Virus record (IMG/VR): IMGVR_UViG_3300006736_000023
Location: 1 to 37,611 of that record
Strand: one strand, 5' to 3'
DNA length: 37,611 nucleotides
DNA from: a virus
Shown here: positions 2,432 to 36,580 of the stretch, one piece after another
Position numbering within the stretch: the stretch's first letter is position 1
Layout: the number at the start of each line of letters is the position of its first letter
The notes under the pieces: generated by a model
What the model was told of the DNA's origin: nothing
Database searches by the model: none
The model's input: the letters and a program-made list of their open reading frames with translations, nothing else
Made by a program: the position numbers and the translations under genes

Positions 2432-5245
2432 TTAATTGCTTTCTCTTTCATATTTATAAGTAACATTTAGATCCATTTTTCTGCCTGTCTTTTTGGATGT
2501 GAGCCGGATCTTAAACGTCTTTCCCCAAATTAATTCATCCGCATCTCCTAAGCTCATATTGCCTATTTGTTCGGATGCTAATAAATTATAATCTATGAGT
2601 TCATCATTTAAAGCCACTTGAGACATATTTGGTTGTAATTGAATTAATTTTTTAAAAGAAATGGATGGATTAGTAAATGTTTCTTCTTGTAAGTCTTCCT
2701 CAAAGAGAACTTCAAAGTTGGGATAAGTGTAGCCTCCATCATTAATTAACTCTGCTTCGTAAATTTCAGACAACCATCCGGGCATCAAATTTTCATTCAA
2801 CACTCTAAACACATAATAATATTTGTGATTAGTTTTTATCATATCATAAAATATAGAATTTGATAAGGTATAGATAGAATCTTTAAGTTTTAAATCAATT
2901 GTGCTTATAAGGCTTCCGTCAAAATCTTCAAAAGAGGTGGGAATTTCATCTACACGGTAAGCCTGCAAAAATCTTTGTTGAGAGATTGATTTATTTGTTA
3001 AGATATCTCCATCGAGAAGGTTTTTAGTATTTAAGTATTCTTCTTCTAAGGCAACATCTGCTGAGGAGATGGTTTTAGGATATGGTTGTTCCACAAACGC
3101 TTCTTGGTTCGCTTCATATCCGATAGTTTGTGATGCATCAAGAAGGAAAAAGGGGTTTATTGTTAATTTATTAGGGGGGTTATCCAATACTTTTAAAGTT
3201 TTGGTGCCCATGGGCACCTCAAATATTTTAAGTTTTGGTTGATAAGTGATACGCATCTGCGCCTGAGCCGGGTCGTAAGATTCATCAATACTACCAGGAA
3301 GGTCTTCCTCGCGTTCGTAGTAATCCTCCGATACAAGTTGATCTGCAGTCTCGCCAGTCGTCGGATTATAATATTCTAAACACCATGGCGTAGATGCATC
3401 TTCGTTAAAATTTATCTGCCGGCTGAGCCTTAAATCGCTCGTTCTATATTCTACACCCAATGAGACAATATATGCATAAATATTATAGGTATATTCTTTT
3501 CCATACACAACTTGTGAATCATATAAATTTATGGTGGATTCATTTAGTGAGTTAAAAATCCAATAATTTTGCAATACTTTGGGGGTTTGTAAGATGCCAG
3601 ACGGATTGGCGGCCACTTTCTCTATTCTATATGCTATCGTTTCATTATATTTGCTGGATTCAGTTTCTGGATCCAGCAAATTAGTCCAACCGTTCAGGAT
3701 ATAGTAAAGATTGCTGGTTGCACCCATAGGAGAAATATCTTCATTCCGCATAACATTAAGTGTCTGTTCAAGAACACCCAATGTGCTTTTAGAATTTAAA
3801 TAAGCATAAGATTCATTTGTTCCCATTGCTGTTTCTCTCTCTATCAATCTTTCTCCTACAAAATAACAATTGTTGTTGGTAGATTTATAATTTTTATAAC
3901 CATATATTAATAAATCAATATAATCTATAGTTTGAAATGAGGTGTTCTCTGTGCTAACAATTATAGAATCTATAATTTCATCTTCTGAGGCCTCTTGATA
4001 GTTTTGCGACAAAACATACTCTTGTGTTTGTGGGAGTAAAGTTTCTATTTCTCCGCTAAAAGCTTCCTTTAAAAGCATAAGAATTTTAGAAGAATAATTA
4101 TTATAAGTTAGAGATTCAACTAGATAGGTGTGGTGCCCGGAGTCTGATGGATTGGTGCCGGCAGCCGCCGCTTGGAGCGCTGCAGTTTTTTCTGCCGTTC
4201 CGCCGGCGCCGGCCATCATCGGGAAACTAATATCGACATAATAAGGAAACAGAGCTTTGGTGTCTGTTATATCAAAAATTGATAGAGTGGTGCCCCCTCC
4301 TGTCATTGAATATTCATCAAAAAATATATTTTGCAAAGCATTTTTAACATATTCGTTGGTAGATGCGGATAATGGATTTAATGGTGCTGATTGAGAAAGA
4401 TATCCATGTAAAACATAATCAGGTATTTCTTCGCCCCATGATGTATTAATATCCGCTAATAGTTCATTAATATTGCCGAGAGGAGAGTCATCGGTAGTTG
4501 TATTATATATTCCTTCTAAACTAACGAAATTTTGTATTGTGGAGTCAAATATTCGCGATGTAGTACTATCGACGGAAGTTAATAGGCCTTCAGGATCCGT
4601 CACATCCGATAGAGTGACACTATTAAACATTTCAATCAAATACATATTAGGAATAAGTAATTCAGAATCCATGGACGCGGCAAATTCTTGATATTGAGGA
4701 AGGTAGTAATTATATTGAGACGAAATATTTAAAATGTTAACAACACTATCTTTCTCAATAAGAACATTAGCTTCTATTTGAGAATATGGAAGAGTTGTTT
4801 CAAACCAATAATCATCCCATACCGTTTCATTATAAATCGTAGGATAAATTACATCCCCATGAGATCCTCCAAGCCAATAAGTTTTCCAGTGATTGTCATC
4901 AATATAGGTATCTGGATCGGCCAAAAACACCGCTACATAAGTGTAGTTGGGAACCACCACAGTGGTGGAGCTTGGGCCATGAGTGTCGGTGACCGCGGTC
5001 GAAGCATCGGTGACTTGTTGTAATATAAAAGGCGAAAGCATAGGGCCGTTGAAAAGGGAGGCGTCGGTGTACTTTTGAAAAATGGGTTCTTCTCCTACGG
5101 TGGTGAGCAGCGCGGAGTCGCTGGCTAGCTCGAAGTCGGTTTCTACCATCTCAAAATACCCTCCTAAAGCTGTACGGAAGGTGTCGGCCGAGCCTGAAAA
5201 TAAGTTTAAATCTATTATTTTTGCTTCTTTTTCTTCAATAGACAT
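2432..5245 (-). CDS. Large virion protein with fibronectin-III-like segments (937 aa)
   Basis: The ATG (5243-5245) is preceded by AAGGAAAAA. The protein is acidic, Tyr/Asn/Thr-rich and has no signal peptide or membrane span. Two stretches look like fibronectin-III folds: about residues 530-610, with YRIEK then YGKEYTYNIYAY, and about 805-846, with YYYVFRVLNENLMPGW then SEIYEAEL. The Tyr-x-Tyr/Phe-x-Val pattern followed by a turn and a second strand is typical of FN3-like modules in phage tail proteins. It lies between the cysteine-rich protein and the fibre-like 334-residue protein. A receptor-binding or fibre/baseplate adaptor role is inferred from the fold and context; the exact function is unknown. 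Confidence 0.78.
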   Translation of the reverse strand: MSIEEKEAKIIDLNLFSGSADTFRTALGGYFEMVETDFELASDSALLTTVGEEPIFQKYTDASLFNGPMLSPFILQQVTDASTAVTDTHGPSSTTVVVPNYTYVAVFLADPDTYIDDNHWKTYWLGGSHGDVIYPTIYNETVWDDYWFETTLPYSQIEANVLIEKDSVVNILNISSQYNYYLPQYQEFAASMDSELLIPNMYLIEMFNSVTLSDVTDPEGLLTSVDSTTSRIFDSTIQNFVSLEGIYNTTTDDSPLGNINELLADINTSWGEEIPDYVLHGYLSQSAPLNPLSASTNEYVKNALQNIFFDEYSMTGGGTTLSIFDITDTKALFPYYVDISFPMMAGAGGTAEKTAALQAAAAGTNPSDSGHHTYLVESLTYNNYSSKILMLLKEAFSGEIETLLPQTQEYVLSQNYQEASEDEIIDSIIVSTENTSFQTIDYIDLLIYGYKNYKSTNNNCYFVGERLIERETAMGTNESYAYLNSKSTLGVLEQTLNVMRNEDISPMGATSNLYYILNGWTNLLDPETESSKYNETIAYRIEKVAANPSGILQTPKVLQNYWIFNSLNESTINLYDSQVVYGKEYTYNIYAYIVSLGVEYRTSDLRLSRQINFNEDASTPWCLEYYNPTTGETADQLVSEDYYEREEDLPGSIDESYDPAQAQMRITYQPKLKIFEVPMGTKTLKVLDNPPNKLTINPFFLLDASQTIGYEANQEAFVEQPYPKTISSADVALEEEYLNTKNLLDGDILTNKSISQQRFLQAYRVDEIPTSFEDFDGSLISTIDLKLKDSIYTLSNSIFYDMIKTNHKYYYVFRVLNENLMPGWLSEIYEAELINDGGYTYPNFEVLFEEDLQEETFTNPSISFKKLIQLQPNMSQVALNDELIDYNLLASEQIGNMSLGDADELIWGKTFKIRLTSKKTGRKMDLNVTYKYERESN
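2451..2458 (-). promoter_or_regulatory. Candidate T4-type late promoter (TATAAATA)
   Basis: The minus strand reads TATAAATA here, an exact match to the T4 late promoter core recognised by gp55-type sigma factors. It lies within the last codons of the 937-residue gene and about 57 bases ahead of the ATG at 2394, leaving a leader that contains a strong ribosome binding site. The same window encodes a gp55-like sigma factor. Against it, I found four exact copies on this strand, close to what base composition alone would give, so only the placement supports function. Confidence 0.35.
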
Positions 5246-5262: not shown

Positions 5263-7731
5263 TTAATAAGAAGTAATGCTAGTAGTAGCAGTTGTCATAG
5301 TGGTAGATACACTTACTATTTTGGCTTGGGCGCTTTCTATATCTTTTGTATCAAAAACCGAGAACATACTTTCATCTAATTTAGCATGTGCAAGTTTCTT
5401 AAAAGTAAACACTTGGGCATTCGCAAGACCACTCGTCAACGTAGAGGGAACTGCGTTTTGAACAGCAGCATCAAATATCAATGTCATTTGCTCCAGACTG
5501 GGAGAAGTTGTATAACCTTCGGCACTAAAATCTCCACCGAAGGTCGCTCTTAGTTGAACCACTTCGCCGCCGGCGCTGTCGGCCGGCCCATTTGAGTAAT
5601 TAATCGTCGAACCACCGTCACTTGATTCCAGCGTTAAAGATGTGATTCCAGAGGGAGTTATTGGATAATAATATCTGATAATAGTAGTGGTATCCTCCTC
5701 ATCGCCCCAAGCATCGCCCATATATTCATACACCAGACTTACGTTTCCGGTGAGCATATCTAGCGCTTCGCTGGCACCGGCCAGATCTGTGACGCTGTAC
5801 GACGTCGACATATCCCAGGCGCTTAACCGCCACCCTGGACTCAGTTTAGAAAAAAGAAATGAGTTATCTACTGTCTCATACGGCGTCGTCATGCTGTACC
5901 AGACGGCGTCGCCAGATTCTACTTCGTACTCTTCTTCATAAAGCGGGTCGCATGCGTCTTCGTGGGACCATGCGCTATAACCAGATCTCAAACCATACCC
6001 AGAATCACAATCACATGTGCCATATGATTCCGTAGCTATTCCGTCGCCGTTAGCGTCATAAGTAGTATAATCGTTTACCTGGAGAGTGGAATGGGCGGCT
6101 GCACAATATAAGCAGTCGAAGTTGCCGGCGACGTCCAAGTTCAAGTAGTTGCATGCGTCATAGGTTCCCGCGGGGAATCCTTTTCCTGGCCCATAAGTAA
6201 AGCTATCATTATCACCGCACAGATCGTTGAGTTCTTCCTCCCAATCCAGCATCAGATTATATGCATCACTAATATCATAACCCCACCTTCCATCGTCAAT
6301 TCCAAGATTTGTTATAGCGCAAGAAACAAAGTCGCATGGAGATCCCATAATACACTTATAAAATGTGTCATGACTGCCGCCGGCACCATCGGATCCACCG
6401 ATGAGCGGGCCACCGTCGATCTGATCCACACAAGCGGCCAGTCCATTTATGCACCTATAGGCCTCAAAACAATCACAATCGCCGCCATTTACATAGCCGG
6501 CACCAGGGGTGGACGTTGAGGTAAAGTTGGCATTCACAGTGTTATTGCAGTAATAGTCTGCACATTCAGTGGGATAGTAGTCAAAACAAGTACCCAGTTC
6601 ATCATCGGTGGGAGCCGCGGCCGCTCCAGCATAATAAGTGACACACTCATCAAAAGTTGCAAAAGCGGGCTCTGTCCATGCACAGGAGCCTTGGCTACCA
6701 CCGGTACCAGTGCAATACCACCCACCAAATTCCGGATTGGACGCGTCATAAAGGCCGGCTCCATCGGTGTCACAGGCGCCATCACCTTCACAACAGGACG
6801 GAGCGTCACATGTGACGTCCTCCCATTCTTCGTCCGCTGCATCGGCGCCGCCCCAAGTATCTTCCTCCTCCACGACGTCACAGTTGCCGTCGGAGTTGTA
6901 AGTGCCCGTAATCCCGTCGTCGTCGGTGCAACCACCTCCAACGGTGAAGGTCTCTTCGTCGAGCACAAGGTCGCGGTGACAGAGATGTGAGCTTGAATCC
7001 CAATCGGCGCCGGTGTCGGCGCACACACAGTCGGTGCCTTCGATACGATCCACATCCGCGGCGGTGCCAGACCAGGTGACCGTATCTCCGTACTCTTCGA
7101 TGCACTCGGCCTCATTCGATGGTACCCACCCGTCGGAGCAGCGGGCCTCCGGTGTCGCCGAGGTGCACATGAAGAAATCCCCCCCCCAAGTGCATGCTTC
7201 AGAAGGAGTCTTATAAAAATCGAATGGCAGCCAACCGAACACATCTTCGCAACCAGGACATCTATCTAAATCGCGCCGATCGGTGCAGGTCTCGCCGCCA
7301 ACGAGCCAGCGGGTTTCCAAACAGCAGACAAGGTTCTCATCCGCGTAAGAATTAAAATCAACGTCGTAAGGGTCTAATTCTTCATACACGTAGGCTTTGA
7401 GGGTTTGGTCGGCATCACCCGAATGGCAATAATAATAGCCGTCGTGGAAACCACCGGTGTTGCAATAAATATCGGAGCAAAAACAATCCTTTATAACGCT
7501 TTCTAGTTGATCAGCGTATGTTGCAGCAAACGCTGATTCTTGGTCGCGCCAATACGAATTCCAACAAGTTTCTGTAATCCCCTCCTCTCTCTCTTCGTCG
7601 GTGAGACCGCACATGGCGGCGGCAGAGTCGATGGCGTCGGTCCCAAGAATACTCAGAGATTCTTTTTGATAATCGGTGAAGTCAAAGATGCAATTTTCAA
7701 GATTGGAGAGTTGGTCATCAGTGCAAGGCAT
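5263..7731 (-). CDS. Cysteine-rich acidic virion protein, candidate adhesin (822 aa)
   Basis: The ATG (7729-7731) follows AAGGAAAAA. I count about 46 cysteines, all between residues 3 and roughly 594, in CxC, CC and CxxC arrangements, while the last 225 or so residues have none. The Cys-rich part is strongly acidic and has an EF-hand/dockerin-like calcium loop, DANGDG, near residue 560, followed by an EGF-like CDCDSGYG. There is no signal peptide. The Cys-free C-terminus is Ser/Thr-rich and beta-like, similar in composition to its neighbours, and may be the virion anchor. Around 6.75-7.3 kb the DNA is close to 60 percent GC, unlike the AT-rich genes on both sides, and includes a G9 run. I infer an exposed, disulfide- or metal-stabilised surface-binding protein, possibly acquired by transfer. 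No family is recognised. Confidence 0.8.
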   Translation of the reverse strand: MPCTDDQLSNLENCIFDFTDYQKESLSILGTDAIDSAAAMCGLTDEEREEGITETCWNSYWRDQESAFAATYADQLESVIKDCFCSDIYCNTGGFHDGYYYCHSGDADQTLKAYVYEELDPYDVDFNSYADENLVCCLETRWLVGGETCTDRRDLDRCPGCEDVFGWLPFDFYKTPSEACTWGGDFFMCTSATPEARCSDGWVPSNEAECIEEYGDTVTWSGTAADVDRIEGTDCVCADTGADWDSSSHLCHRDLVLDEETFTVGGGCTDDDGITGTYNSDGNCDVVEEEDTWGGADAADEEWEDVTCDAPSCCEGDGACDTDGAGLYDASNPEFGGWYCTGTGGSQGSCAWTEPAFATFDECVTYYAGAAAAPTDDELGTCFDYYPTECADYYCNNTVNANFTSTSTPGAGYVNGGDCDCFEAYRCINGLAACVDQIDGGPLIGGSDGAGGSHDTFYKCIMGSPCDFVSCAITNLGIDDGRWGYDISDAYNLMLDWEEELNDLCGDNDSFTYGPGKGFPAGTYDACNYLNLDVAGNFDCLYCAAAHSTLQVNDYTTYDANGDGIATESYGTCDCDSGYGLRSGYSAWSHEDACDPLYEEEYEVESGDAVWYSMTTPYETVDNSFLFSKLSPGWRLSAWDMSTSYSVTDLAGASEALDMLTGNVSLVYEYMGDAWGDEEDTTTIIRYYYPITPSGITSLTLESSDGGSTINYSNGPADSAGGEVVQLRATFGGDFSAEGYTTSPSLEQMTLIFDAAVQNAVPSTLTSGLANAQVFTFKKLAHAKLDESMFSVFDTKDIESAQAKIVSVSTTMTTATTSITSY
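7179..7187 (-). repeat. G9 homopolymer inside the cysteine-rich gene
   Basis: Nine consecutive C on the plus strand give G9 in the coding strand, read as Trp-Gly-Gly-Asp. The reading frame is intact through it. Long G runs can slip during replication or transcription and are also a common place for sequencing indels, so the frame of the 5' part of this gene depends on this run being read correctly. Confidence 0.9.
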
Positions 7732-7743
7732 CTATTTTTTCCT

Positions 7744-8235
7744 TCATCGTTGGCTTCGCATAAGAGTTATAGCTGTTCTTATATAACTAGGGACTGCCTC
7801 GGCCGAGGCATCGGCTTGTTCTACTTGGTATCCCTCTGGAAGCTCATCATCAAGTTGATAAAATGGATCTTTAACGTCTGGAAAGCTTTCAATCGCTGGG
7901 ATCTCTTGTGGCTCAAGTTTCTTATAACGTTCTTCATCCATTATATTTTCATTGTCAAGGGTTTCAGTTTGATCATCGCTCAAACTGAAATCAAACTTTT
8001 CTCCAGACACACCGCAGTCATATTCAGCCAAAAGCATTAAGGCTGCCTCGTTTGTAGAGATGCTCGTGCTTATTTTTAAATTTCGTTGTTTTAAGCCTAT
8101 CTGTATCGCCGCACTATCGGATGTTTGTTCATATATTTTGCCGTTAATTACGATCTTCCCCCTCTGTTGTCGAAGACGATTGGACTTGTCCGTCTGGGGC
8201 GCGCCTTTGGTGGTTATAGTATCTTCTGGTGGCAT
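7744..8235 (-). CDS. Hypothetical protein, probably tail-associated (163 aa)
   Basis: The ATG lies at 8233-8235; a clear ribosome binding site is missing, with only GAGAAAA upstream, so translation may depend on coupling to the gene ending 15 bases earlier. The N-terminal third is basic (SNRLRQQRGK), the middle has a compact segment (about residues 28-75), and the rest is acidic and proline-rich (for example KLEPQEIPAIESFPDV), likely extended. It ends in a short basic amphipathic helix (YIRTAITLMRSQR). No membrane span or catalytic motif is visible. It sits between two large virion proteins and could be a linker or chaperone for one of them, but this is a guess from position. The family is not recognised. 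Confidence 0.7.
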   Translation of the reverse strand: MPPEDTITTKGAPQTDKSNRLRQQRGKIVINGKIYEQTSDSAAIQIGLKQRNLKISTSISTNEAALMLLAEYDCGVSGEKFDFSLSDDQTETLDNENIMDEERYKKLEPQEIPAIESFPDVKDPFYQLDDELPEGYQVEQADASAEAVPSYIRTAITLMRSQR

Positions 8236-8247
8236 TGTGGTTTTCTC

Positions 8248-8255
8248 TATTTATA
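8248..8255 (-). promoter_or_regulatory. Weak candidate late promoter (TATAAATA overlapping a stop codon)
   Basis: The minus strand reads TATAAATA just ahead of the ATG at 8235, and the TAA in it is the stop codon of the 792-residue gene. A start of transcription six or so bases downstream would leave a leader of only about seven bases, too short for a normal ribosome binding site. The match may therefore be accidental. Confidence 0.15.
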
Positions 8256-10629
8256 CGACTACTGTACGCGCATATGGTAAATCTGTTGTTCCGGGGCTCG
8301 AGGGTAGTTGATATATTGAAACGGCATCCGCGTTTAGAGAGCACGTAAACACATGCTCTATGGCGGCGTCTGTGATGCCGGCCTTCATGGTACTTACGGC
8401 ATTGTTTAATTCGATCATCTGATCATTAAAAGCCTCTAATTGAGGAATATTTCCAGTTATTGGGCTAATATTTTGGCCAGTGGCTTCGGCCGATGCCGTG
8501 ACAATAGCTATATCGCCGCCATGAACATTATACAAAATGTCCATAAAATAATGATAAGCAGTGGCAGCTTTCACCCATGGGGCGGCCGCAAGATTACTGC
8601 CGTAAAGTGCTTCCATTTCATCAACAAAAAATTGATTAAAGGTCTCATCAATATTATTCCAAGCACAAATTTCTTTTGCAGTATCATAATACGTATCAAA
8701 CTCACCTTTGTTGTTCTCAAATGCAGTTAAAATAGCCGATATAACATTGGACGTGCTATCTTCCATAGTCACAGTAGCAGTATAAGTATATGCTTCTATT
8801 GGGCTATCGAGGGTGGGTTCATGAAGGAGCGCTTGAGCATCATAACTCATGAGATCTTGAAATTCAAAGGCCATCAGACGAAAGGCGCCGGCGCCTACAT
8901 ATCCCCAGCCGTCTACGCCATCATCATTAGACGCGTCGTAGGCGTATCTATCACTCAATCGGATGGGGCTGTAGGCATACCCGGGTTCGTAATTACGTAA
9001 AGCCAAAAAAGAGTGGACGCGTACATCGCCATCCACAATTCTATCGCCGCGGTCGTCTGTCATATCACTTGTAGTTCCTATGACAGTATAAGCGGTTGAA
9101 TCTACTGCGGGATAATTATTACTGTAAGTGTAAGAGGTAACCATACGCATACCATTCTCGCCGTCGGGATCCATACGCTCTAATTCTACAGATTTGAGTT
9201 GATAGGCAACATTAAAAAGGCCGACCCCAAAACTTTCGATAAGTTTTTGTACATCTGCGATAGCCACGGCGGCCGCTGTATAATAAAAAGCTTTGTCATA
9301 ATCAAAGAAAAACCATCCATAACTTGATCCATAATCAAATTCTTCGTCACCTGACGTGGCCACCTGAAAAACAGTGCGATTTAATATGGGCGTGCCGTAA
9401 GAGGCAACTGTAAAGCTAATAATTTCACACTCAGCGCATGTTGACGGTAGCTCGTCGCCTTCGGTGCACCAATCGGTCGGGACACTAGGCGGTACATATA
9501 CATCCGTGTTGAATAACCTTAAATCGATGATTTTAGATCCAGTAACTTCTTTCTTATGAAGTATGTTTCCAAGCAACACAACATCATTGGCAGAATATAT
9601 TTTCTTTCTATATTTAAGATATAATTGTCCAGTCGTGGTGGCGCTCGTCTTACTGGGAAACGCTTTTCTATATTCATTCAATCTAGGCAATAGATCGACA
9701 GCTTCTCCATAAGTTATAAGAATATAAGAAATATTATTGATAGAATCAAGCAAAGCTTCATCTGTGGTGGCCACCACCGAACCTTCGTATTCATCCAATA
9801 ATTCCTGAAAAGAACTAACAATTTTATCATGTGTAAGTTTGTCTGGCTCGTGATATGAACCCTGAATAGCTTGAAGAGGAGTATTTCCATATACAGCTTC
9901 ACTATTATCCATCCACACCACGTCCTCGGGAATGACTACGACTCCGCCGGCTAACACTGGCTCATAGGATATATCACTTGATTCGGTACTTACAAAATTT
10001 AGCCAAGAATGATATGTGAGATCATCTGGGTTTTGCATGGCCGTGGCCGTCGCGTCGTAGTCCTGGTCCCAGGCGGCGACACCTGGTGACCAGTTGATGT
10101 CGGGAGTAAAGAAATCTTCAGCGCTACTCCAGGTGTATGCATAAATGTTAGTATACGCGCTCCCGAGACTACTCCACGTCATCGATGAATGAACCCATTC
10201 TCCCTTATAAGTGAATTTTAATACCCTGTCTCCATTTTCATCATAAAATACGTCATATCCGGGTCCATCGCCGGCATCATTCATTATAAAAGAATTGTCT
10301 TCATTCTCCACTTCCCAAAAAGTTGTCGTCGACGACCCGGCGATCAGCGAGCCGTCGACCATGGCAGACCATACTGATTTGCCATTCACATAATCCTCTG
10401 GTGTATAATCAAGACCGACGCCCCACCAAAATCGAAGAGCACTTAAATTGTTTATAAGAGTAAGTTCATCGGTTTCTTCGGTTGCTTTAAGAAAAATGTT
10501 TATTTCAATTGCCATTTTGGCATAACCGGTAGTGCCATCTTCTTCTATAGAAATTTTATCAATATATGGGTCAGGTAAATATTTCCCAAAATTGACAGTT
10601 GTATCTCCTTCAAAAATTAACTTTGACAT
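8251..10629 (-). CDS. Large virion structural protein, hypothetical (792 aa)
   Basis: The start ATG (10627-10629) lies 13 bases inside the end of the preceding gene and has CGGAG nine bases upstream, so the two are probably translationally coupled. The protein is acidic and rich in Tyr, Asp and Thr. The N-terminus (MSKLIFEGDTTVNFGKYLPD) is followed by a strand-rich segment, and a Cys cluster with a CAEC motif lies about residues 390-405. The C-terminal 150 residues look helical. There is no signal peptide or membrane segment. It follows the fibre-like 355-residue gene and precedes the cysteine-rich gene, which supports a place on the outer baseplate or fibres. I cannot assign a family. Confidence 0.78.
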   Translation of the reverse strand: MSKLIFEGDTTVNFGKYLPDPYIDKISIEEDGTTGYAKMAIEINIFLKATEETDELTLINNLSALRFWWGVGLDYTPEDYVNGKSVWSAMVDGSLIAGSSTTTFWEVENEDNSFIMNDAGDGPGYDVFYDENGDRVLKFTYKGEWVHSSMTWSSLGSAYTNIYAYTWSSAEDFFTPDINWSPGVAAWDQDYDATATAMQNPDDLTYHSWLNFVSTESSDISYEPVLAGGVVVIPEDVVWMDNSEAVYGNTPLQAIQGSYHEPDKLTHDKIVSSFQELLDEYEGSVVATTDEALLDSINNISYILITYGEAVDLLPRLNEYRKAFPSKTSATTTGQLYLKYRKKIYSANDVVLLGNILHKKEVTGSKIIDLRLFNTDVYVPPSVPTDWCTEGDELPSTCAECEIISFTVASYGTPILNRTVFQVATSGDEEFDYGSSYGWFFFDYDKAFYYTAAAVAIADVQKLIESFGVGLFNVAYQLKSVELERMDPDGENGMRMVTSYTYSNNYPAVDSTAYTVIGTTSDMTDDRGDRIVDGDVRVHSFLALRNYEPGYAYSPIRLSDRYAYDASNDDGVDGWGYVGAGAFRLMAFEFQDLMSYDAQALLHEPTLDSPIEAYTYTATVTMEDSTSNVISAILTAFENNKGEFDTYYDTAKEICAWNNIDETFNQFFVDEMEALYGSNLAAAPWVKAATAYHYFMDILYNVHGGDIAIVTASAEATGQNISPITGNIPQLEAFNDQMIELNNAVSTMKAGITDAAIEHVFTCSLNADAVSIYQLPSSPGTTDLPYARTVVV

Positions 10630-11724: not shown

Positions 11725-14700
11725 TTAATTCTTATATAAAATCTGTACATCTAGTTTGGCCATTTCTACAATAGAAATATAATCATAAGGCCAGTTAAAC
11801 ATCACTTCATATTCCTTTTCCTGGGTTGTTTCCTTATTAAAAATATTTTCGGACGATTCTCCTACTTGAGTTACAATTTTATCATAATAATTGCTCGATG
11901 CTCTCTGTTTAATTTTGAATACCATCCAACGAAGATTTTCTTTCTCCAAAATAGATGTATCCAAAAGCTCTGTATTTATTAGTTCATGAGCTACACTATA
12001 GCTTTCTAACGAAATCTTTTGGTAGTCGCGGGGTGCTAAATTTTGCCAAATATATGCAAGGTCATCTTGGTCTAACTCATATTCAAATTCAAACATATAC
12101 ATGACCATCGGACGAATGTCGGGATTATTAATGAAATCAAATTGTGGAGGTAACACATAGCGGCCCATCTTCTGTACTAATTCTCGAATAGAAATTCCTG
12201 CAGCATCTAAGGAATCTCCAGTAGCAGTATTTTTACTCATAGCAGCTTGGAATCTTTCTTTGGGGATACTTATAAACTTTTTGCGCTGGGAAGCTTGTTC
12301 GCCAGATATGGAGCTTATTTGACTTTGTATAATATTCTCGGTTGTATACGGTACTGCCACTACAGCTTCTCTAATTATTTGTTGTGAAGCTAGCTCTCCT
12401 AACCTAGTTTTAGATTCGTTTCGTTCAAAACCCGTTAGTTGTGCTAGCGACTTCAGTTTCTTATGAAGCCTCTTTCCATTCACGCCGGCATTATTATCGT
12501 TATAAATGGTATCATTAGTAATAACATCATAATGATATTTCAACCAATTAGTGGGAATATCTCCAATCTTAAGGAAGATTCCATTATCAGTTTCAGTGGG
12601 GGGTACGCCAAATTGGTGCCACATTCCTCGAGGTACGGATGCTGAACCATAAGTGGGTAATGTTAATGTAGAATTTGCTGTCGAAATGGGATGGACCGGA
12701 TCATTATCACTAAAATTCATCATCGGTGTTTCAAATTTGGACTGAATAACCCATTTTTTCCCTACAGATTTATTAGTATCCATTATTAAATTGCCAAATT
12801 CATCCAGCGTCTGCTCTGTTACTCTTTCCACGCCAAAGATATTAACACTAGCGCTTAACTGCATGGCATTTGCGTTGACATTGGCGCCCCCATAGGGCGG
12901 GCCCGGATCATTGCTACCTGTGGCTCCTTTTGGAATCAAGGCATATTTGGTGACATTGGATGCATAAAGCTCTACACCGGGGTCGGCGCGCCAGTAGGCA
13001 GCACTTGTTTCTGATAAAATGCGCTCCAAGGAGTAGGTTTCCCCCGCAGTGGGCCTAAAGATCAAATCACACCAAGCCTCTCCATAAAAATAGGGAGGAG
13101 TATAAGCCCACGCATGCCCATTGGCAAAATCTCGAACGCCATTTGCATCCCCTTCACGGGCGATAAGAACGGTAGCATCACCATCCGCCCCCCACGCTGG
13201 GCGCCCAGCAACAGGCGGGCCGTACGCAGTGGGACGAGTATAAGGAACGAACAGGGGCTTAAATTTCACATTCTTAATAGGATCTTGAGGAAGAGGATAA
13301 GAGCCGCGCAATGCCCGGGCCGCGGCTCCGGAACCACTGTAGGCCAGGGCGCCCATTTTAGTAAAGCTAGCATTACTTCCATTAGAACCCGATTCGCTAC
13401 CATAAGTTCTATCACCATCCCATGCGCGCTGCATTACAATTCTGGCGCCAAAAATATCGCCCCTTTCAAATTTTAAATCATCAGTGATAATGCCAGATTT
13501 TAACGTAGAAAACTCTTGGTTCTTGAGAAAGAAATTAGCAATCTCACCAAAAAAGTTAGTTGACATCTTGGAATATATGCCATCAGATTCACCTGCAAAT
13601 GATGAACTAACATCTAAGCTCACCGATGGATGAGGTTCACAATCAATAAAGGCAACATCTTTTATATGAGATTCGGGTTCAAGAATGGCTTCAAATGGTA
13701 TCCTTAAATCATACCACTCACCTCCATTATACCCTTCAGTTGTTTCTTCTGCGTTAGTCGCATTAGCATGTAAAAGCGCCCAATCGTTTGTAGTTTCCGA
13801 AGAACCTGTCCATCCTATCGGAATAAACCGAGTGGCATCGATAAGAGTGGGATAATCAACAGCTATTCCACCTTTCATAGTGTTATATAAGATACCCGGC
13901 GCAAACAATGGTTGTATTAACGGCCTCAATAAAGATCCGGACTTTTTGAGCAGAGAAGTCCCTTTAACAACAGAACCACCCTGTTTTTTACCCATCAGCC
14001 CAGCACCATAAGATTTAGAAAATTGAGTAACCAGATTCATACTTCTTTGTGCTGGATAAAATCCCTTATACGGATTGAATCTAATTGCAGCACTCATTAC
14101 AAGACGTATTTCTGAGGCTTTTAGTCTGGTTTCGCTTGGCACATTACTAAACTCCTTCATAAATTCGGAGTTAGAATAATCTTTATAGAAATTGTCTTGC
14201 GTGCTGTTCAATGTGGTTCCGGGGATTTCGAATGTATTTGTTTGATTTAATATTCCATAGTTAATATAATCATCTACATGTTCACTAATTCTAAACTCAG
14301 GGATAATAGAATAATCTTTTGCAAGAAGTTTTAAATCATATCGAAAGTCATCATAAGTACCAAACCAAGGTTTTGAGGACGTAACCTCAAAATGCACCTG
14401 AGAGCCACTCTTAATTACTCTTCCCGCTTGTGTGTCAGCTTCCCACAAAGCTTCTCCGGCATAAGGCTCGGGTACAATTCCTTCCATCGACGCTGTTGAA
14501 AACTCTCCAATATTAGGATTGCTTCCAGTTTCAGGAATGTTAGTCCACGGACTCACAGATTTAGGCGATTGTAGCATATGCTTTCTCGCATATAAAGCAC
14601 TAGGAGATAACACTTGATATTTATTTTCCACAGGGCCGCCAGTTGAATACTCAGTATCCCAATAGAAGAAATAGTTATTTTGCATTTCGCCTGCGGCGCC

Positions 14701-17700
14701 GGAGATAATCAACCCATGATCATAACCAGGAGAAGAAGAAGAGTTCCAACTCGGCGTAGGAAGGGTGGTTGCCGTTCGTGTTAAGAAATTGTCCTGCGCA
14801 TCAATAGCCCAACAACTTTGTGAGACAGAACGACTAAAGGAGTTGTTGATAGCATTTCCCACTGTGGCTCTTGAATTTGTCCCCGTACGGATGTTCCTCC
14901 AAAATTCATTATTATAATCCGTTCGAGTGGTGGTGCGAGAAAGCATTTCATTTGGATCTGAAGGATATACTCCTTGTGAATAGAGAACCCATTGTAAACT
15001 ATAAGCTCTGTTTCTCTTAAAAGCTCTTGTTAATCCATCATAGGCAGTTGGAATCCTTATTTTAGGATCTATTAAGTGATTATCCAATTCGATGTTATTA
15101 AAATAAATATGCCTGTTATTGTCTGATGCCTTAAGTGTAAGATTATTACCTGCTTGCGGCCTTTTATATGCTGTGGAAGCGGGTGCATCAATATTCATCA
15201 AAACTGGGCGCCCTTTCAAAGAAACTGCCCCCACACTATAGCTAGAAAGCACACTCTTGCCGGGATTTTTAGTTAAACTTAGTGTGGATCCTGTGGCTTC
15301 TGCAACCAAAATAGGATGATCGTTCTGGCGAAGCTTCTGCCAATTCCATCCATACGTATTGCCGCGGCGCGTCATTAAAAGATTGAAATAATTGGCGCTT
15401 GACCCGGTAACTGTATTCGAATCAGCAGCAGATAGTTTTTCAATTAACTGTGAGTTAAAATAAGCTGTGCCCGCCGAGGTGGAAGGGTATCCTAACACAT
15501 TGGTTGTAGAGCCCGTGACCGGATCAAGAGTAAAGATATTTAACCTCGTGGTAGGCTGAAACATTCCCACTGAAGTATCAATGACGCTTCCTGTAATAAA
15601 ATCAAAATAATCTACATATCCGGAAGATCCAGAGAATAAATCATAAGGAAAGTTTCTTCCGGTTGGTTGGAAACGATAATAGCGTACGTCACTAGAGGAT
15701 ACCAAGGAAGATGTAAACCAAGAATATTGACGATCTGATCTAGGAATAGGATGGACTACATAAGCATTATCAAACTGTGAGCCACTAGAATATCCTGAAT
15801 CATCTGCATACGCTGTTGAAGATGATTTAATCACCACCCATCGGTTGCGATTATTTTGTTGGAAACTGGGTAGCTGGTTATATGTCGCACCAGGAGATGC
15901 TGTTTCAAATATCGAATCTCGACCAAATCTTGCCGAGTGTCGAGCTAAGAGTCCATTTAATCCGTAAGACTTACCATGAATATCGTATACGCGAATGCCC
16001 GGTACTCCGGATCCGGTGGCTTGAGAGATAGTACCGCTAGGAGGCTGCCATGGCCTTAGGACGGAAAGATTCCGCCAAGGAAGAGCATTGTACGGAGAGT
16101 ATTCGGCGCCTCGAATATCAAGGAAACCACGAGACATCACATCTGGACCGCCGGGCGCCGCAAATCGACCCACAAACACAGTCTTATTGGTTGTACCTGT
16201 GAGTTCTACGGGGGCATAATCCAAATCCCAATTAAAGTGAGAGTTTTCTGTACGTCGTATCCAAGGGAAAAACCCTACCACATTTGTTGACGCCGAGGGG
16301 ACAGTTTCAAGAAGATTTACAACCGGTGTGGGAAGAGGGGGTTGATATTCCAAAAAGTGTCGCGGAGTTGAATAAGCCCCTACCGATTGAACGACCTGGG
16401 CGGCATGAGTATAATTACCCAAAACAGAGTCCATGGAACTAGTAATATTGCGAATATTCACTGGGCGTTTAGCAACAAATCCGCGATAATATATGGCCTT
16501 CTGGGATGCCGTCATGGGATAAGGTCGCTTGTGGGCATCATTAGCCTCAGGCCACGGATAGTCAACACCCGCCATGCCAATGGCGCCACTAGTATTAGGA
16601 CATTTTCCTAAAAGCAACTTCCAAGCTTCTGGACGCGTCAAATAAGTATCTAATACAGAACCTGTATTTATAGCCACATGGCGAGATTGGTGACCCCCCA
16701 CGTTGTGATCTGTAAACGGTCCCTGCATCGGCACTTCCATGTCCGGCCCATACACATCATTATGTAAGTTAGTTACCTCAATGCTGGAGGTTACTTTATT
16801 AACCACCAACTTGTTGTATCCTGACACCACCGATGAACTCATGATGTTAAAGGGGAAAGAATATGTAGATTTGGTGTTTGCGTATCCACTACCATCTTCC
16901 CAATCACGTCCATGTTGGACCCTCCCAAAAACTCTCTTCAACTTTCTACTGGAGGGAAAATTAGCTACATTTGCAGTAATCTCATCCAAAGGTTCTAAAT
17001 CATCTGTTAAGGCCATCAAAACATTTTTGGGAACAAAAACATTGTTATCTGTATTGACAGGGCCACCTGCGTATAGTGCATTATAAGTGAATTGTATGTT
17101 CTTGTTTTCTTGGAAGTTTACTCCACCCCAATAACTACCAGACCCACGCCTGGCCAATGTGCTAGAAAGCTTTTCATTTTGAGCATTTTGAGCGACATCT
17201 TGCATTCCTTTATATGTGGTTCCATCTACACTCTTAAAATTCGGTAATGCTTGGGGTACAGTTGGAAAACTAGCCGCAATCTTTCGAATGTTGTCTCTTT
17301 GGCTATCGACAGTGGCATCACCCGAAGTAATCTCGGGCGCTGTTCTAAGTGCTCTATTCTTCCAGAATATTTCGTGTTTATTTGTAGGTCGAGGCGAACT
17401 GGCGGCCGGTGACGAGGAGCCAAAGCCAGCGTCCTCACTGGCCAGGAGGCCCTCCACCGTGGGTTCTTCATAATTAAGCATCGGAAACTTGCTACGATAT
17501 TTGTTTCTTTCAAGAACGTGACTTTCAATCGTATTATATGCATCGGGCGTAAAATCGCCGCTGGCGGGCAGAAGTTGGCCAATTACTTCTGCTATCGCAT
17601 CATCAAACCATTTGTAATATTCGATAAATTTCTCTACTTGTTTAACTTCGGTAACTCTTCTAAAGAATATTTCTCTTAGTTTTTCAAGTGTTTTATATCT

Positions 17701-21753: not shown

Positions 21754-23881
21754 AGTTTTCTACTCTAAACCTAAAGACGTCTGGTTGTTCCACCCACGAA
21801 TTAAGCCCATTATCATAGAAAGAGAATTTAAATGCATATTCATACCCAGGCTCCAACAAGTTCATATCTAAATCAAAATAATTTCCCGAAACATCATAAG
21901 ACATCAGTGTCTGTAAATCACTCCCAGTTCCATATGGAATGGCATCGTAAGCATCTAAAGTTCTATAAACCCTATATGAAGAACTTATGATATTCGTTGT
22001 CGGCGGATTAATATTGGCCACTGTGTATACAGTCGGTTGCCAGTTTTTATCTCTAACATATAAATTAAACCGTGCATTTTCATTTGCGCGGTATTTGTCT
22101 TTGAGATTTGTGATGTTCATATAATAAGTTGGACGAGTGATGCGGTTTTGGGCGCGCAATGTGTGACACGCAATCGCGCCTGTAAAATATTGTGTAATAG
22201 CATCGCTAGCATTTGTAGTAGTGTGGCTTCCTGTAAACCATACATCATAAATGGTTTTAAGTATAGGATTGGTGGTACCTGTAAACGCAAAAGAAGCGCT
22301 ATAAATACCAGTTGAAACAATACCCCCCGTTACAACTGTTTGATTATCGCTGCCAACATGGCCCGGATCGTCAAGAGATAATACCTGTGCACTCCCAGTA
22401 TTGCCTATCGATCCAAATGCCCCCGAGAGAGAACCGGAAACAGGAATGTCTGAGGGGGGCACATCATCTCCATCACCCCCTGTATAAAAACCTCCGGTTG
22501 AACCCGAATAAATGCTCACATAAATACGTTTATCATCTCCTAAGTCGGGAATATCAGTCAATTGGCCATCAATATAGTTGTAGAAATATATTGTATTAAG
22601 ATTTTTGGCGGCTGGGGCTAGAGAACTACTAAAGAAAAAGTTTGCTCTATCATCAGCTTTTGCTGAATTCCATCGAGCTTCAATAGTTGGTTTTTTAAAG
22701 AAATACTCGGTCCCACGGGCAAAAAACCTCTTGGTATAATAGGAGGTGGTTGAACCGCTCGGATTGTAAATAACACTTTGTGTATCATCATCACCGTCAA
22801 GGGCAAGCTGTCCTGGAATACGACTAGTGATAGTATTTGCTGAACCCGATTCATATGCTTCGTAACTGGCCGAAAGATGTACTCCCACGCCATAGTTAGA
22901 GTATGTGCTACCCATCCACTGCTCTACTAATGGAGTGATATCTAATTCTAAATCTTCTAATCCGGTGGAGAAATCTTTAGTGAAAGTAAAAATTTCGGTA
23001 TCTACAATGCCCGCCACTGCTCCTCCCGTAATATATGACCCGCCGGCCAACAAAGTACCATTAATATCAGTCCAATAACCAGCGGTCGCTCCGGACCATT
23101 GTGAAGCAGCCGTAATAACACTATCTGTAATTGCAGTTCCAGCTATATCTGAGACGCGATTTCCTGCAAAACTAATAGAAGTCATAGTAAGAGTTACAGT
23201 GGCGCCAGAAGCTGTGGCTGCAATATTCAGTGTTTCGGCTGTATTGGCGGCATTAATAGCAGCCGCAATATTAGTAGCAAATTGTGAAGCGTTGCTATTT
23301 GCATTAGAAAAACCGATGACTGTTGCCGTGGAAGTATCGGTGCTGTTATCAATACTAAAAGAAACAGAATTGGCAGCCACATCAGTAATGACCAAAGTTC
23401 GAGTATTAGCTTCACCCGCTGTTTTACTGAGGGCTGTCAACGATGCGCTCGCACCAGCATTGGCAGTGTTGGAGCCCGACATCCAGTTGGAACCCTCGTT
23501 GCTTAGCGTCAAATCCTTATACCCCTCCAAATCCAAGCCGACGCCCTCTTGCCACGATTGTGAAACCGTAAGAACTGTTAAAGTATAATCTCGTGGTACA
23601 GTTTTTGAATGTTCTGCATTATACATGCGCAAATAAAAACTAACACTGCCGCTGGCTGGTATATCATTGTTGGTTCTGTCTGTAGAAATATCACTGATGG
23701 GAAACTTAATGAGAATGCGAGATAATTCTTGAGAACTCGTGGTGACGCGTCCATAAATAGAGAAGGTCTCTAAAATATCCGATTGGCCCGCGTTGGCGCC
23801 GGTGCCTCGCGTTTTTAAATTCGCATCATAAGCGTTAACAACAGTGTTATCAGCATCTGCCACATATCTTTTGATAGTCAT
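21743..23881 (-). CDS. DNRLRE-like virion protein with an inserted domain (712 aa)
   Basis: The ATG shares one base with the stop of the gp6-like gene (TAATG) and has AAAGGAAAGG upstream. Residues 1-135 read like the first half of a DNRLRE-type beta domain: ADADNTVVNAYDANL, then LSRILIKFPIS, VSFYLRMYN and a W-Q-E-G turn. The second half appears at about 305-340 (LELDITPLVEQWM, NYGVGVHLSA). Between them, about residues 142-268, sits an Ala/Ser/Thr-rich insert (ATNIAAAINAA, then ATVTLTMTS and a final WSGATAG) of a kind common as a mobile module in phage virion proteins. The C-terminal 300 residues are beta-like. It lies between gp6-like and the giant wedge-like gene, so a baseplate location is likely. 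DNRLRE domains are usually found in surface proteins; function here is unknown. Confidence 0.78.
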   Translation of the reverse strand: MTIKRYVADADNTVVNAYDANLKTRGTGANAGQSDILETFSIYGRVTTSSQELSRILIKFPISDISTDRTNNDIPASGSVSFYLRMYNAEHSKTVPRDYTLTVLTVSQSWQEGVGLDLEGYKDLTLSNEGSNWMSGSNTANAGASASLTALSKTAGEANTRTLVITDVAANSVSFSIDNSTDTSTATVIGFSNANSNASQFATNIAAAINAANTAETLNIAATASGATVTLTMTSISFAGNRVSDIAGTAITDSVITAASQWSGATAGYWTDINGTLLAGGSYITGGAVAGIVDTEIFTFTKDFSTGLEDLELDITPLVEQWMGSTYSNYGVGVHLSASYEAYESGSANTITSRIPGQLALDGDDDTQSVIYNPSGSTTSYYTKRFFARGTEYFFKKPTIEARWNSAKADDRANFFFSSSLAPAAKNLNTIYFYNYIDGQLTDIPDLGDDKRIYVSIYSGSTGGFYTGGDGDDVPPSDIPVSGSLSGAFGSIGNTGSAQVLSLDDPGHVGSDNQTVVTGGIVSTGIYSASFAFTGTTNPILKTIYDVWFTGSHTTTNASDAITQYFTGAIACHTLRAQNRITRPTYYMNITNLKDKYRANENARFNLYVRDKNWQPTVYTVANINPPTTNIISSSYRVYRTLDAYDAIPYGTGSDLQTLMSYDVSGNYFDLDMNLLEPGYEYAFKFSFYDNGLNSWVEQPDVFRFRVENYEY

Positions 23882-25677
23882 TATACGACCTTTCCTTTAA
23901 TATCAGTCGAAGGAAACTTAATCTCTATAAGAGCATTTGCCGGAACAACCAAATAGCTTCCGTCTGGCGAAAGGTTATCATTAATATCAATATTAGCCCC
24001 TGAATAGTTTGCGCCGACTTTGTTAACCAACTTAACAGTTAAAACATCCAACAAACCTGTGACATTTTTAAGTTCACTGTAAATATCGCTAATATAGAAA
24101 GGTTCTCCAATGTAATAAGGTGTACTGTATTTTGCCGCTAGCGCATTTACTGCGTTATCTAATAAAACAAACTTGTCGGTGCCTGTGGCTGCTTTAATGG
24201 TAAAATTAATGCCAATATTAAGAATGTAGGGATCCAAAATATCAATTGTATCATTAATCATTCTATATTGATTCAACCAAGTTTTAACATTATCTTTAAT
24301 TGTGTTATTGGTTTTAACTAATTTTCCCTGGCTATCTTCCGATACAATATATAAATTAAGATTTCTTTTCAACGAGTTGGGATCTTTTTGCGCAGAAACT
24401 CTTTTAACTGACCCAAATTTAGCCGGCATCCTGTAAACCACATTTTCATAATCCGCTTGAGTAACTGCTCTATTTTGAGTGGGAAAAGTATCAAAAATTC
24501 TTCTTTTAACTTCTCCGGACGAGGGCGCGCCAACGTTGCCCATAATCGGCTCTTCGTTAGAGACTTCTAACGAGTTAATGACCGTTTGCATCGTGGTACT
24601 TGTTAATGACTCTGGATTTTTAAATTCCATTTTGGCATTACCTACTGAGTTTAAAGCAGTTACCGCAACATTAGAGTTGGTGGCATTTGTTACTCGGTAT
24701 GTTATTGTCAAGGTGGTATTCGAAGGAACCACCCCAAGGCTTTCATTTCGTGACAAACGAGTGGGATCAAAAGTCGTATCGGTTACATATGCTTTTCCAA
24801 ATGCATTCACCGCCACAGATTGTGGATCCGCCACGACATTCGTTTCCCCCTCCTTCCCGCTGCCAAATTGCAAGAAGGAGGAAAGGCGCGTACGTTCTAC
24901 CACAAATTTTCTGGAGGTTAAAAATGGTTTTAAAATAGAAGGCACATTGTCGTTCTTAAAGTTCGTGTTTCCCATTTCTTTTAATATCATGTCTTGAGCG
25001 AGATAATCCACTTCAAAATATTCGCGACCTTGCGAATCAGTTACAGACATGATCTCCGCTACATTTGTTGTGGCCATGGGTACTTGCAAAAACTTCTGGT
25101 ATGCTCCTACTCTAATTTTTTCCTGAGTGAAATATCCAGAGACTACATTTCCATATGCTTTGATCGCATAAAATGTAGGGGCGCCCGTAGTAGTATCAAC
25201 AGTGGCTACCACAACGGGATTTTTAGTGTCGGAAAAGTCAACATTTTCCGTTAAGACAAAATTAGTGCCATTGGAGGCGGTGAATCGAGAGCCTCTTTTT
25301 AAAAGTGGTGTATAAGAGGTGTCGGGACCTAAAGCTGTTGCCGATGCTGGCACTATAACGAAAAGAGCTACCTGGCCATAGGTTGATGGAACACCGGTGT
25401 ATTTATATCCTAAAACTCTGCCATGACGAAGAATATTATTATATTGGTATGCAGTATCTAAAAAAGATTCATTAACATTATAGTCTAAATAAAAGGAAAG
25501 CTGATCTCCCACATACGCCACTGCATCAAGCATCAAAGAACCAAAAGAAGCCTCACTCCAGTCTTTAAATGTATCCGGATAAAAGCGTTCAGCTATTTGC
25601 ATTAAATCCTCACGAATACTTTCATACTCGCGATGAGTGTAATCTATTGGTATTATCTTTTTTTGTTCATTTGACAT
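23881..25677 (-). CDS. Baseplate wedge protein, gp6/J-like (598 aa)
   Basis: The gp6 family (baseplate J-like) forms the inner ring that joins wedges around the hub of contractile tails. The signature N-terminus is present: IDYTHREYESIREDLMQIAE, then RFYPDTFKDWSEASFG and MLDAVAYVGDQLSFYLD. The central part contains a conserved-looking RRIFDTFPTQNRAVTQADYE, typical of J-like proteins, and the C-terminus has the LKNVTGLLDV segment. Length is close to T4 gp6 (660). I take the ATG at 25675-25677 as the start because GAGGG lies seven bases upstream; a TTG codon just before it is also in frame. The gene follows gp25-like by 15 bases and overlaps the next gene by one base, the usual W-J order. Confidence 0.93.
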   Translation of the reverse strand: MSNEQKKIIPIDYTHREYESIREDLMQIAERFYPDTFKDWSEASFGSLMLDAVAYVGDQLSFYLDYNVNESFLDTAYQYNNILRHGRVLGYKYTGVPSTYGQVALFVIVPASATALGPDTSYTPLLKRGSRFTASNGTNFVLTENVDFSDTKNPVVVATVDTTTGAPTFYAIKAYGNVVSGYFTQEKIRVGAYQKFLQVPMATTNVAEIMSVTDSQGREYFEVDYLAQDMILKEMGNTNFKNDNVPSILKPFLTSRKFVVERTRLSSFLQFGSGKEGETNVVADPQSVAVNAFGKAYVTDTTFDPTRLSRNESLGVVPSNTTLTITYRVTNATNSNVAVTALNSVGNAKMEFKNPESLTSTTMQTVINSLEVSNEEPIMGNVGAPSSGEVKRRIFDTFPTQNRAVTQADYENVVYRMPAKFGSVKRVSAQKDPNSLKRNLNLYIVSEDSQGKLVKTNNTIKDNVKTWLNQYRMINDTIDILDPYILNIGINFTIKAATGTDKFVLLDNAVNALAAKYSTPYYIGEPFYISDIYSELKNVTGLLDVLTVKLVNKVGANYSGANIDINDNLSPDGSYLVVPANALIEIKFPSTDIKGKVV

Positions 25678-25684
25678 CAAAAAA

Positions 25685-25694: not shown

Positions 25695-26063
25695 TTAATT
25701 AGTTATTTCTAAGAAATCTGAAGCTCCAACTCCCGGAATGGTATACCTGAGTTGTATTCCTAAATGATTATTGTCAGGATCAGTAATACCAAAAGTTATT
25801 TCTTGAATTTGGACTGCTGGCATATAAATCCTAACTTGTTCCCTAATTTTATTATCAATATTGGCAGAAGTTTGACTTCCAAAATTCTCAAATAAATAAG
25901 TTTTAATTCCAACTCCAAACCTAGGTTCCATTACTCTTTCGCCTGGATTTGTAAGAAGAAGCATTTTCAAATTTTGTTTGACTAGTGTCTTAAGATCTGT
26001 AATCATTTTAAAACCTGTACTATAATCTATCTCCAGTGGAAGTGCTGCAGCAAGTGAACTCAT
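25695..26063 (-). CDS. Baseplate wedge protein, gp25/W-like (122 aa)
   Basis: This is a member of the GPW/gp25 family, small wedge subunits that nucleate sheath assembly at the baseplate. The key segment is present at about residues 28-58: TLVKQNLKMLLLTNPGERVM followed by the EPRFG motif and a YLFE helix. The second half has the usual strand pattern (VQIQEITFGIT then LGIQLRYTI). Length is normal for the family (T4 gp25 is 132). The ATG at 26061-26063 has AAGAGG upstream. It is placed just ahead of gp6-like, as W is ahead of J in P2. Confidence 0.93.
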   Translation of the reverse strand: MSSLAAALPLEIDYSTGFKMITDLKTLVKQNLKMLLLTNPGERVMEPRFGVGIKTYLFENFGSQTSANIDNKIREQVRIYMPAVQIQEITFGITDPDNNHLGIQLRYTIPGVGASDFLEITN

Positions 26064-35587: not shown

Positions 35588-35879
35588 CGTTGACTTCTCC
35601 TTGAATCATATCAAATAAACTATTCTTATCTTCCTCTGACAATCCCTTATTTTGAGTTTGACCTTTTTGTCTCAACCCAATTATCTTTACTAGTTGTTCA
35701 TTAGATCTCTGCAATGTTTCTACGTGTTTGGCGGCCACTGGGCTAAGATACTTATTTTGTTCTGGCTCCCTCACTATTTGATTAGCTACCTCATTTAGAA
35801 ATTCACGCGCTAGTTTTCTATCACTGCGAATATTATCGAGCGCTTCTTCAATCAGATTTTCTAAATTGTGGCTACTCAT
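35580..35879 (-). CDS. Small helical protein, hypothetical (99 aa)
   Basis: I take the ATG at 35877-35879, which overlaps the TGA of the sigma gene as ATGA and has GGGAG five bases upstream; a TTG 18 bases earlier is also in frame but lacks such a site. The gene overlaps the next by eight bases. The protein is almost wholly helical and charged (NLENLIEEALDNIRSDRKLA, then HVETLQRSNEQLVKIIGLRQ) and could form a coiled coil. There is no membrane span. Coupling to the sigma gene suggests a late-transcription partner (a gp33-like coactivator is one possibility) or a structural chaperone, but I see no sequence match to either. Confidence 0.75.
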   Translation of the reverse strand: MSSHNLENLIEEALDNIRSDRKLAREFLNEVANQIVREPEQNKYLSPVAAKHVETLQRSNEQLVKIIGLRQKGQTQNKGLSEEDKNSLFDMIQGEVNDG

Positions 35880-36580
35880 ATCACTCCCGTGTCCCAATCT
35901 TGCTTAAAATTATAATATCTCTTCCGAAATTTCTTTAAGGAGTTAACAATCTGTTTGGTGTTAAGTCCTGTGATCTCTCGAAGATATAAATAAATAGCTT
36001 TCTTATTAAAAATATCAATATCCTCTTTTGACTCAAAAAGTATGTTAATCGCTTTATATACTTTTAAATCGTTCTCCTTCATTTGAGATGTATCCCACGA
36101 TTTGAGTTCTGTGTAAAACTTTTTCCAGAATTCATCCTCTTCCCTATGAGTCAAATACGATTCTTCAGTAGAAAGATATTGTTCCTCATAGCTCTTAGAA
36201 ATGTTGTTTAAATCCACCTCTCGCTTGTTTTGTTTCTGCTGTTTTTTAACCTTATGAATAAACCAGTTCTTTGTGATTACCGAAAAATAAGAAAAGGCGG
36301 AAGAGCCTCTTTCAGGATCGTATTTGCCGAGTATAGTCATTAACCATATCTTACATTCTTCTCTCAGAGAATCAATATTTGGCAGACTGGTGAACTTGTA
36401 AGTGAACACGATCTTGTCCACCATTTCATTAAATGCAGGCCCAATATATTTAATATAAAGTTCTGTTCTTATTTGAAGACACTCTGTATTGGCATATTTG
36501 ACAATGGCGTCTTCATGGACTTGTGTAAAGTAATAGTTTTTTTTAGATTTCTTCGGCTTCGTTGTCTTCAGCTTCATCAT
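35876..36580 (-). CDS. gp55-like late-transcription sigma factor (234 aa)
   Basis: T4 gp55 redirects host RNA polymerase to late promoters of the TATAAATA type and works with the DNA sliding clamp. Residues about 71-117 contain a region-2-like core: LREECKIWLMTILGKYDPER, then AFSYFSVITKNWFIHKVKKQ, with the YDP..G..AF.YF pattern of phage late sigma factors. Residues about 190-222 form a second helical pair (TGLNTKQIVNSLKKFRKRYY) that may bind DNA. The N-terminus is Lys-rich. T4 gp55 is 185 residues, so this one is slightly longer. I choose the ATG at 36578-36580, with AAGGAG nine bases upstream; an in-frame TTG precedes it and a second ATG follows it. It overlaps the acidic 72-residue gene by 38 bases. 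Confidence 0.85.
   Translation of the reverse strand: MMKLKTTKPKKSKKNYYFTQVHEDAIVKYANTECLQIRTELYIKYIGPAFNEMVDKIVFTYKFTSLPNIDSLREECKIWLMTILGKYDPERGSSAFSYFSVITKNWFIHKVKKQQKQNKREVDLNNISKSYEEQYLSTEESYLTHREEDEFWKKFYTELKSWDTSQMKENDLKVYKAINILFESKEDIDIFNKKAIYLYLREITGLNTKQIVNSLKKFRKRYYNFKQDWDTGVI

Follow-up and report, generated by a model that had tools for sequence, protein, structure and literature searches.

The protein encoded on the minus strand between positions 5263 and 7731 of the window (i.e., the whole stretch of 37,611 bases that was analysed, a fragment of an uncultured phage) belongs to a kind already known, the hypervariable proteins of tail modules, and what is unusual about it is a module with 46 cysteines and the question of chemistry that this module raises. 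The cytoplasm in which phage tail proteins are synthesised is reducing, and dense cysteines are usually avoided in such proteins. With about even confidence, we read the protein as the local version of a hypervariable tail or baseplate protein that occupies a slot between two conserved genes, in which a conserved anchor carries an acquired, disulfide-stabilised module that would face outward and be oxidised after lysis. Location in the virion, a disulfide-bonded state and contact with the host are what we infer for this protein.

The slot gene belongs to a minus-strand run that encodes, in order, gp25-like and gp6-like proteins, proteins of 712 and 3,342 aa and then proteins of 355, 792, 163, 822, 937, 334 and 367 aa. 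The features referred to below, with related viral loci designated by L numbers, were as follows.

25695..26063, minus strand: gp25-like baseplate wedge gene (PHROG baseplate wedge, E 6.3e-22).
23881..25680, minus strand: gp6-like wedge gene of the baseplate, part of this run (PHROG baseplate wedge, E 1.5e-17).
8251..10629, minus strand: 792-aa gene upstream of the 163-aa gene, variable at its C-terminus.
7744..8235, minus strand: 163-aa gene, the upstream boundary of the slot, whose homologues precede the slot gene in related loci.
7740..7744, minus strand: Shine-Dalgarno-like AAGGA, 8 nt before the ATG and overlapping the stop of the 163-aa gene.
5263..7731, minus strand: slot-protein gene (P0001), 822 aa with 46 cysteines, an open frame preceded by the Shine-Dalgarno-like AAGGA and packed between its flanking genes.
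5932..7731, minus strand: cysteine-rich N-terminal addition, residues 1-600, with 46 cysteines at 3-594, acidic and without a signal peptide.
6040..6057, minus strand: DANGDG, residues 559-564, present at near chance expectation and without a complete EF-hand or thrombospondin type 3 (TSP3) loop.
5992..6015, minus strand: CDCDSGYG, residues 573-580, present without the PROSITE EGF patterns or a Pfam EGF match.
5263..5931, minus strand: cysteine-free C-terminal domain, residues 601-822, corresponding by alignment, and by length match, to compact slot proteins of 217-242 aa in related phages.
5266..5778, minus strand: residues 652-822, the part with statistically supported homology, containing E..LR..FG, FKK, FS.F, a Thr-rich tail and a terminal Tyr.
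2432..5245, minus strand: 937-aa gene, the downstream boundary of the slot, represented by homologues at 53% identity in L002 and 38% in L003, and also in many more loci.

A tail or baseplate location of the slot protein is suggested by synteny, the gp25-like and gp6-like wedge genes lying in the same run. The gp6-like gene had more than 80 relatives among viral contigs. The nearest cultured relatives were remote (Microcystis phage Mel-JY01 and Flavobacterium phage immuto, about 29-31% identity in gp6), and of the relatives that extend beyond gp6, the nearest (92% identity in gp6) stopped short of the slot. Near relatives by gp6 (92-100% identical) were IMGVR 3300025118_000201 and 3300037586_005330. 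The phages of this group are uncultured, myovirus-like and apparently mostly aquatic (probably mainly marine, as we read contig origin and cultured relatives); scans of genome contigs for host clues found none.

Several other proteins of the window and of related loci deserve mention in their own right. The 3,342-aa protein of the tail run (11725-21753, minus strand) matched Laminin_G_3 in two stretches (E 3.4e-22) and is a candidate glycan-binding giant tail protein. A 2,321-aa protein (26090-33055, minus strand) contained three spaced HxH motifs at residues 1301-1345 (DGHRH, DGHVH and ECHTH), and similar NEHAHHY and DGHTHTL repeats were seen at the end of the giant protein of L002; these motifs are possibly metal-binding turns. 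At 35876-37167 (minus strand) there was faint similarity to a T4-type late sigma factor (phrog_234, E 8e-5), adjoined by a 94-aa protein with CxxC pairs that resembled an FmdB-type zinc ribbon. The L002 version of the 792-aa neighbour (L002 5346-8387) had about 220 extra residues at its C-terminus with further cysteines, and at positions 10120-12252 of L003 the 334-aa 'MAFLDNSGDIILDAVLTE'-type protein, of which the window has one copy, was duplicated in tandem.

An earlier note on this DNA had reported about 46 cysteines in the first 600 residues and a cysteine-free C-terminus, and recounting bore out both observations, the 46 cysteines lying between residues 3 and 594 and none in residues 595-822. 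Cysteine made up 5.6% of the whole protein and 7.7% of residues 1-600, as against 0-1.8% for other large genes of the window, and the fraction was the highest in a set of 1,281 distinct ORFs (at least 300 aa, from related loci), whose median was 0.42%. By these comparisons, the density of cysteines is far beyond chance.

Because the flanking genes have relatives, although the cysteine-rich part has none in the collections searched, the homologous position could be read in about 40 related viral loci. Between the homologues of the 163-aa and 937-aa proteins there was nearly always one gene, and it is this position that the window gene occupies. Slot proteins were mostly 217-360 aa long and cysteine-poor, within a full range of 144 to 822 aa. 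In the comparison of the window with L002, identities were 53-65% for the 937-, 334- and 367-aa neighbours as opposed to about 30% for the slot core. As judged from such alignments, the slot protein is fast-evolving and hypervariable. Among 39 slot proteins, 34 had Tyr as the last residue, as a rule at the end of a Ser/Thr/Gly-rich tail, compared with 14% of other ORFs, and the window protein ends in TTATTSITSY. This Tyr-ending, Ser/Thr/Gly-rich tail is possibly a C-terminal docking or assembly signal. Endings noted in L002, L003, L096, L099, L102, L121, L139 and other loci included GGSSY, TGDY and STTGY. In two lineages the slot region contained one additional, inserted ORF of about 208 aa (L087 3139-3768 and L108 5200-5826), with similar starts and ends and 6-7 cysteines.

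Quick evolution and a wide spread of lengths (144 to 822 aa) are found in accessory proteins too, and the slot protein might accordingly serve in assembly or be set free at lysis instead of being part of the virion, with the cysteine-rich part acting elsewhere, e.g., on the host cell or its surroundings. We regard this as unlikely, since the gene has a fixed place in the late tail-gene run across the roughly 40 loci, the C-terminal tail is conserved and a secretion signal is absent.

The two-part build proposed in the earlier note, a cysteine-rich arm on a cysteine-free anchor, held up in that the C-terminus proved homologous to the slot protein and the N-terminal part differed in codon usage. 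An HMM made from C-terminal parts with the window left out detected the window protein with an E-value of 1.3e-4 (21.4 bits), as against 0.16 for the best unrelated ORF. In the ranking the window protein followed the slot proteins immediately and preceded all unrelated ORFs; three 'non-slot' frames that scored higher were truncated copies of slot proteins. Against a profile of 17 whole cores, the window protein scored 33.7 bits, compared with a maximum of 11.3 in 1000 shuffles, and the matched part was residues 652-822. Removal of the last 35 residues lowered the score to near that of the best shuffle, so that the signal of homology rests partly on the tail. Residues 601-651 were placed by length and alignment only, the first part of 601-822 alone being below significance. 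The compact slot proteins of L139 (217 aa), L121 (219 aa), L096 (234 aa) and L142 (242 aa) aligned to residues 601-822 only. The cysteine-free C-terminus thus corresponds roughly to a whole ordinary slot protein, and, given this correspondence and the homology of the C-terminus, residues 1-600 are an N-terminal addition.

With regard to the origin of this addition, GC3 in the N-terminal part was 283 observed as opposed to 191 expected from its amino acids and the other genes (z 8.3), whereas the maximum z among 102 windows of equal length from other genes was 3.1. The excess was greatest in residues 101-300, and the C-terminal part was not unusual (z 1.7). By its foreign codon usage, the cysteine-rich addition looks acquired. 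Codon usage sharply unlike that of the rest of the contig, together with the failure of viral-contig scans to reveal the cysteine-rich stretch in a second contig, would also be expected of an assembly chimera or recent junk insertion, i.e., a metagenome artefact or a non-functional in-frame fusion. This explanation is highly improbable, however, in view of the Shine-Dalgarno-like site 8 nt before the start, the upstream stop 12 nt before the same ATG and the 600 open codons joined in frame to the C-terminal domain, which as an artefact would need two exact joins. Moreover, an extension rich in cysteine, but of its own kind, occupies the corresponding place in a separate lineage, L087. The L087 slot protein (3790-5004; the same as L170 6787-8001), of 404 aa, was the next richest in cysteine, with 12 in residues 15-93, and this stretch consisted of two similar units around C-x2-CC-x9-C-[SG]DGS.P.

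Cysteines of slot proteins in general were counted upstream of the core and within it. There were 83 in 4,780 residues upstream versus 15 in 8,496 core residues with the window protein included, and 37 in about 4,180 residues of the extensions versus 15 in about 8,270 core residues with the window protein excluded. The N-terminal extensions of the other slot proteins were smaller than that of the window protein, and no similarity was found between the N-terminal part of the window protein and the cysteine-bearing N-terminal parts of L002, L003, L087, L092, L093, L208 and L209 (z -1.0 to 0.7). It is a fair inference from these few cases, which establish no general rule, that cysteine-containing N-terminal parts were gained independently.

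The short motifs to which the earlier note had drawn attention were all present in the cysteine-rich part, but the meanings attached to them did not stand. Thus, CC, CxC and CxxC occurred 2, 4 and 2 times, and shuffling of the same residues gave means of 3.4, 3.5 and 3.5. The sequence DANGDG, taken as a calcium-like loop, was the one D-x-[DN]-x-D-G core seen where 0.18 were expected by chance (P 0.16); a calcium loop of the thrombospondin type 3, EF-hand or dockerin kind was rejected because this core is single and incomplete and the repeated DxDxDGxxD-type loop is absent. The sequence CDCDSGYG does resemble the end of an EGF domain, but an EGF-like domain was rejected on the basis that the Pfam EGF profile gave no match and that the protein contained neither of the PROSITE patterns PS00022 and PS01186. 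In the Pfam and NCBIfam searches, EGF, thrombospondin and metallothionein families remained absent even when the E-value limit was raised to 10.

The suggestion of metal binding likewise received no support, a metallothionein-like or zinc-binding domain being rejected for want of CxC and CxxC motifs above shuffled levels and of a family match in Pfam or NCBIfam. A high content of cysteine and of acidic residues would suit a module loaded with zinc, iron-sulfur or other metals, both within the reducing cytoplasm and as part of the virion. Thioredoxin-family genes, which are ordinary in phages, were above cut-off in 12 of 14 relatives, and their frequency was counted as neutral toward this explanation. 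With CxxC (2) and CxC (4) not enriched, only 8 His in 822 residues and neither a metallothionein nor a zinc-binding family recognised, a metal-loaded module is very unlikely. Wide spacing of the cysteines, the unenriched CxC and CxxC motifs and the few His favour disulfides over metal clusters.

Comparison of the whole protein and its parts with Pfam, PHROGs, NCBIfam and PDB sequences yielded no match better than chance. Neither tblastn in phages and plasmids nor two scans of viral contigs with the protein or its N-terminal part recovered a relative of the cysteine-rich part; 29 related viral records contained none either, and no clear internal repeats were seen within it. AlphaFold2 models of residues 1-600 (single sequence) and 601-822 (18 sequences) had mean pLDDT values of 42 and 48, too low in both cases for folds, cysteine pairs or metal sites to be read.

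Hydropathy analysis of the 822-aa protein revealed no signal peptide or membrane segment, and the protein is therefore probably synthesised in the cytoplasm and retained there until lysis. Its place in the late tail-gene run and the conservation of its C-terminal part suggest that this part docks in the tail or baseplate while the N-terminal part points outward. According to the reading of a conserved anchor with an acquired module, the protein, which lacks a signal peptide, would be a cytoplasmic product that joins the tail while reduced, its C-terminal 220 residues or so probably docking into the tail or baseplate. After lysis, release into oxic water would oxidise the cysteines to disulfides, and the resulting module, rigid, protease-resistant and outward-facing, might touch the host surface or shield the tail tip. 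The N-terminal addition is probably a disulfide-stabilised attachment that lies exposed outside the cell. Post-lysis oxidation of the cysteine-rich part is plausible, given that neither a signal peptide nor a membrane segment is present. A search for sulfhydryl oxidase gave 0 matches, its controls being equally undetected. Host contact is the usual reason for hypervariability in tail-tip parts, and a role of this kind may be presumed for the slot protein.

A module of 46 cysteines on a hypervariable tail-module protein would offer a clear natural case in which to ask whether oxidation after lysis helps to fold or arm phage proteins, and whether disulfide-rich modules are exchangeable host-contact parts in uncultured phages. 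Tentatively, and with more doubt than confidence, it may be proposed that a group of phages diversifies a tail-tip protein by fitting a conserved anchor with unrelated modules rich in cysteine, and that these modules fold by oxidation only after lysis. If true, post-release covalent maturation would arm the virion outside the cell. The layout of the slot, with two conserved neighbours, a conserved C-terminal anchor and a free N-terminus, provides a simple way to gather modules from metagenomes.

Among the known systems closest to the window protein are the slot proteins of L002, L003, L093, L096, L102, L121, L139, L142, L169 and other loci, which have the same gene position, a homologous C-terminal part and the shared motifs E..L..FG, FKK and LS.F followed by a Ser/Thr/Gly-rich tail ending in Tyr, but which lack the cysteine-rich part of 600 residues. 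EGF, thrombospondin type 3 and other extracellular cysteine-rich modules resemble the N-terminal part in their many widely spaced cysteines, their CDCDSGYG-like and DxNxDG cores and their acidic, Gly/Asp-rich composition; they differ from the window protein in that the latter has no Pfam match, no PROSITE EGF pattern or TSP3/EF-hand loop and no clear internal repeats. The statement in the earlier note that no family of this kind had been described was correct as far as the searched libraries go, but phage virions rich in disulfides have been described before (PMC10811340, PMC10491603). No description of such a module was found in searches of open-access literature for cysteine-rich or disulfide-rich phage tail proteins, which is weak evidence of novelty as subscription journals were mostly outside this search, and the sole close precedent that these searches found was phage Milano.

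Milano, a contractile phage of Agrobacterium, has disulfides both within and between its virion proteins (PMC10811340, PMC10491603), and its structural proteins are, like the window protein, unusually rich in cysteine (2.1-2.4%; PMC10811340, PMC10491603). No sequence link between Milano and the 822-aa protein was found. In Milano, all tail components are disulfide cross-linked (PMC10811340, PMC10491603), and by analogy the cysteines of the window protein could serve as a covalent cross-linker, stabilising the virion through disulfides between copies or with neighbouring tail proteins without any receptor role. This is quite unlikely, because neighbours with 0-1.8% cysteine would provide few partners, unlike the many of Milano, and because 46 cysteines within a single module suit internal pairing better. 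Enrichment across many structural proteins, as in a Milano-type virion, was not seen among the other structural genes of the window. Milano cysteines are distributed across sheath, baseplate, neck, collar and capsid, whereas here one protein, at 5.6%, stands among cysteine-poor neighbours and carries most of the cysteines, which makes internal pairing the likelier arrangement.
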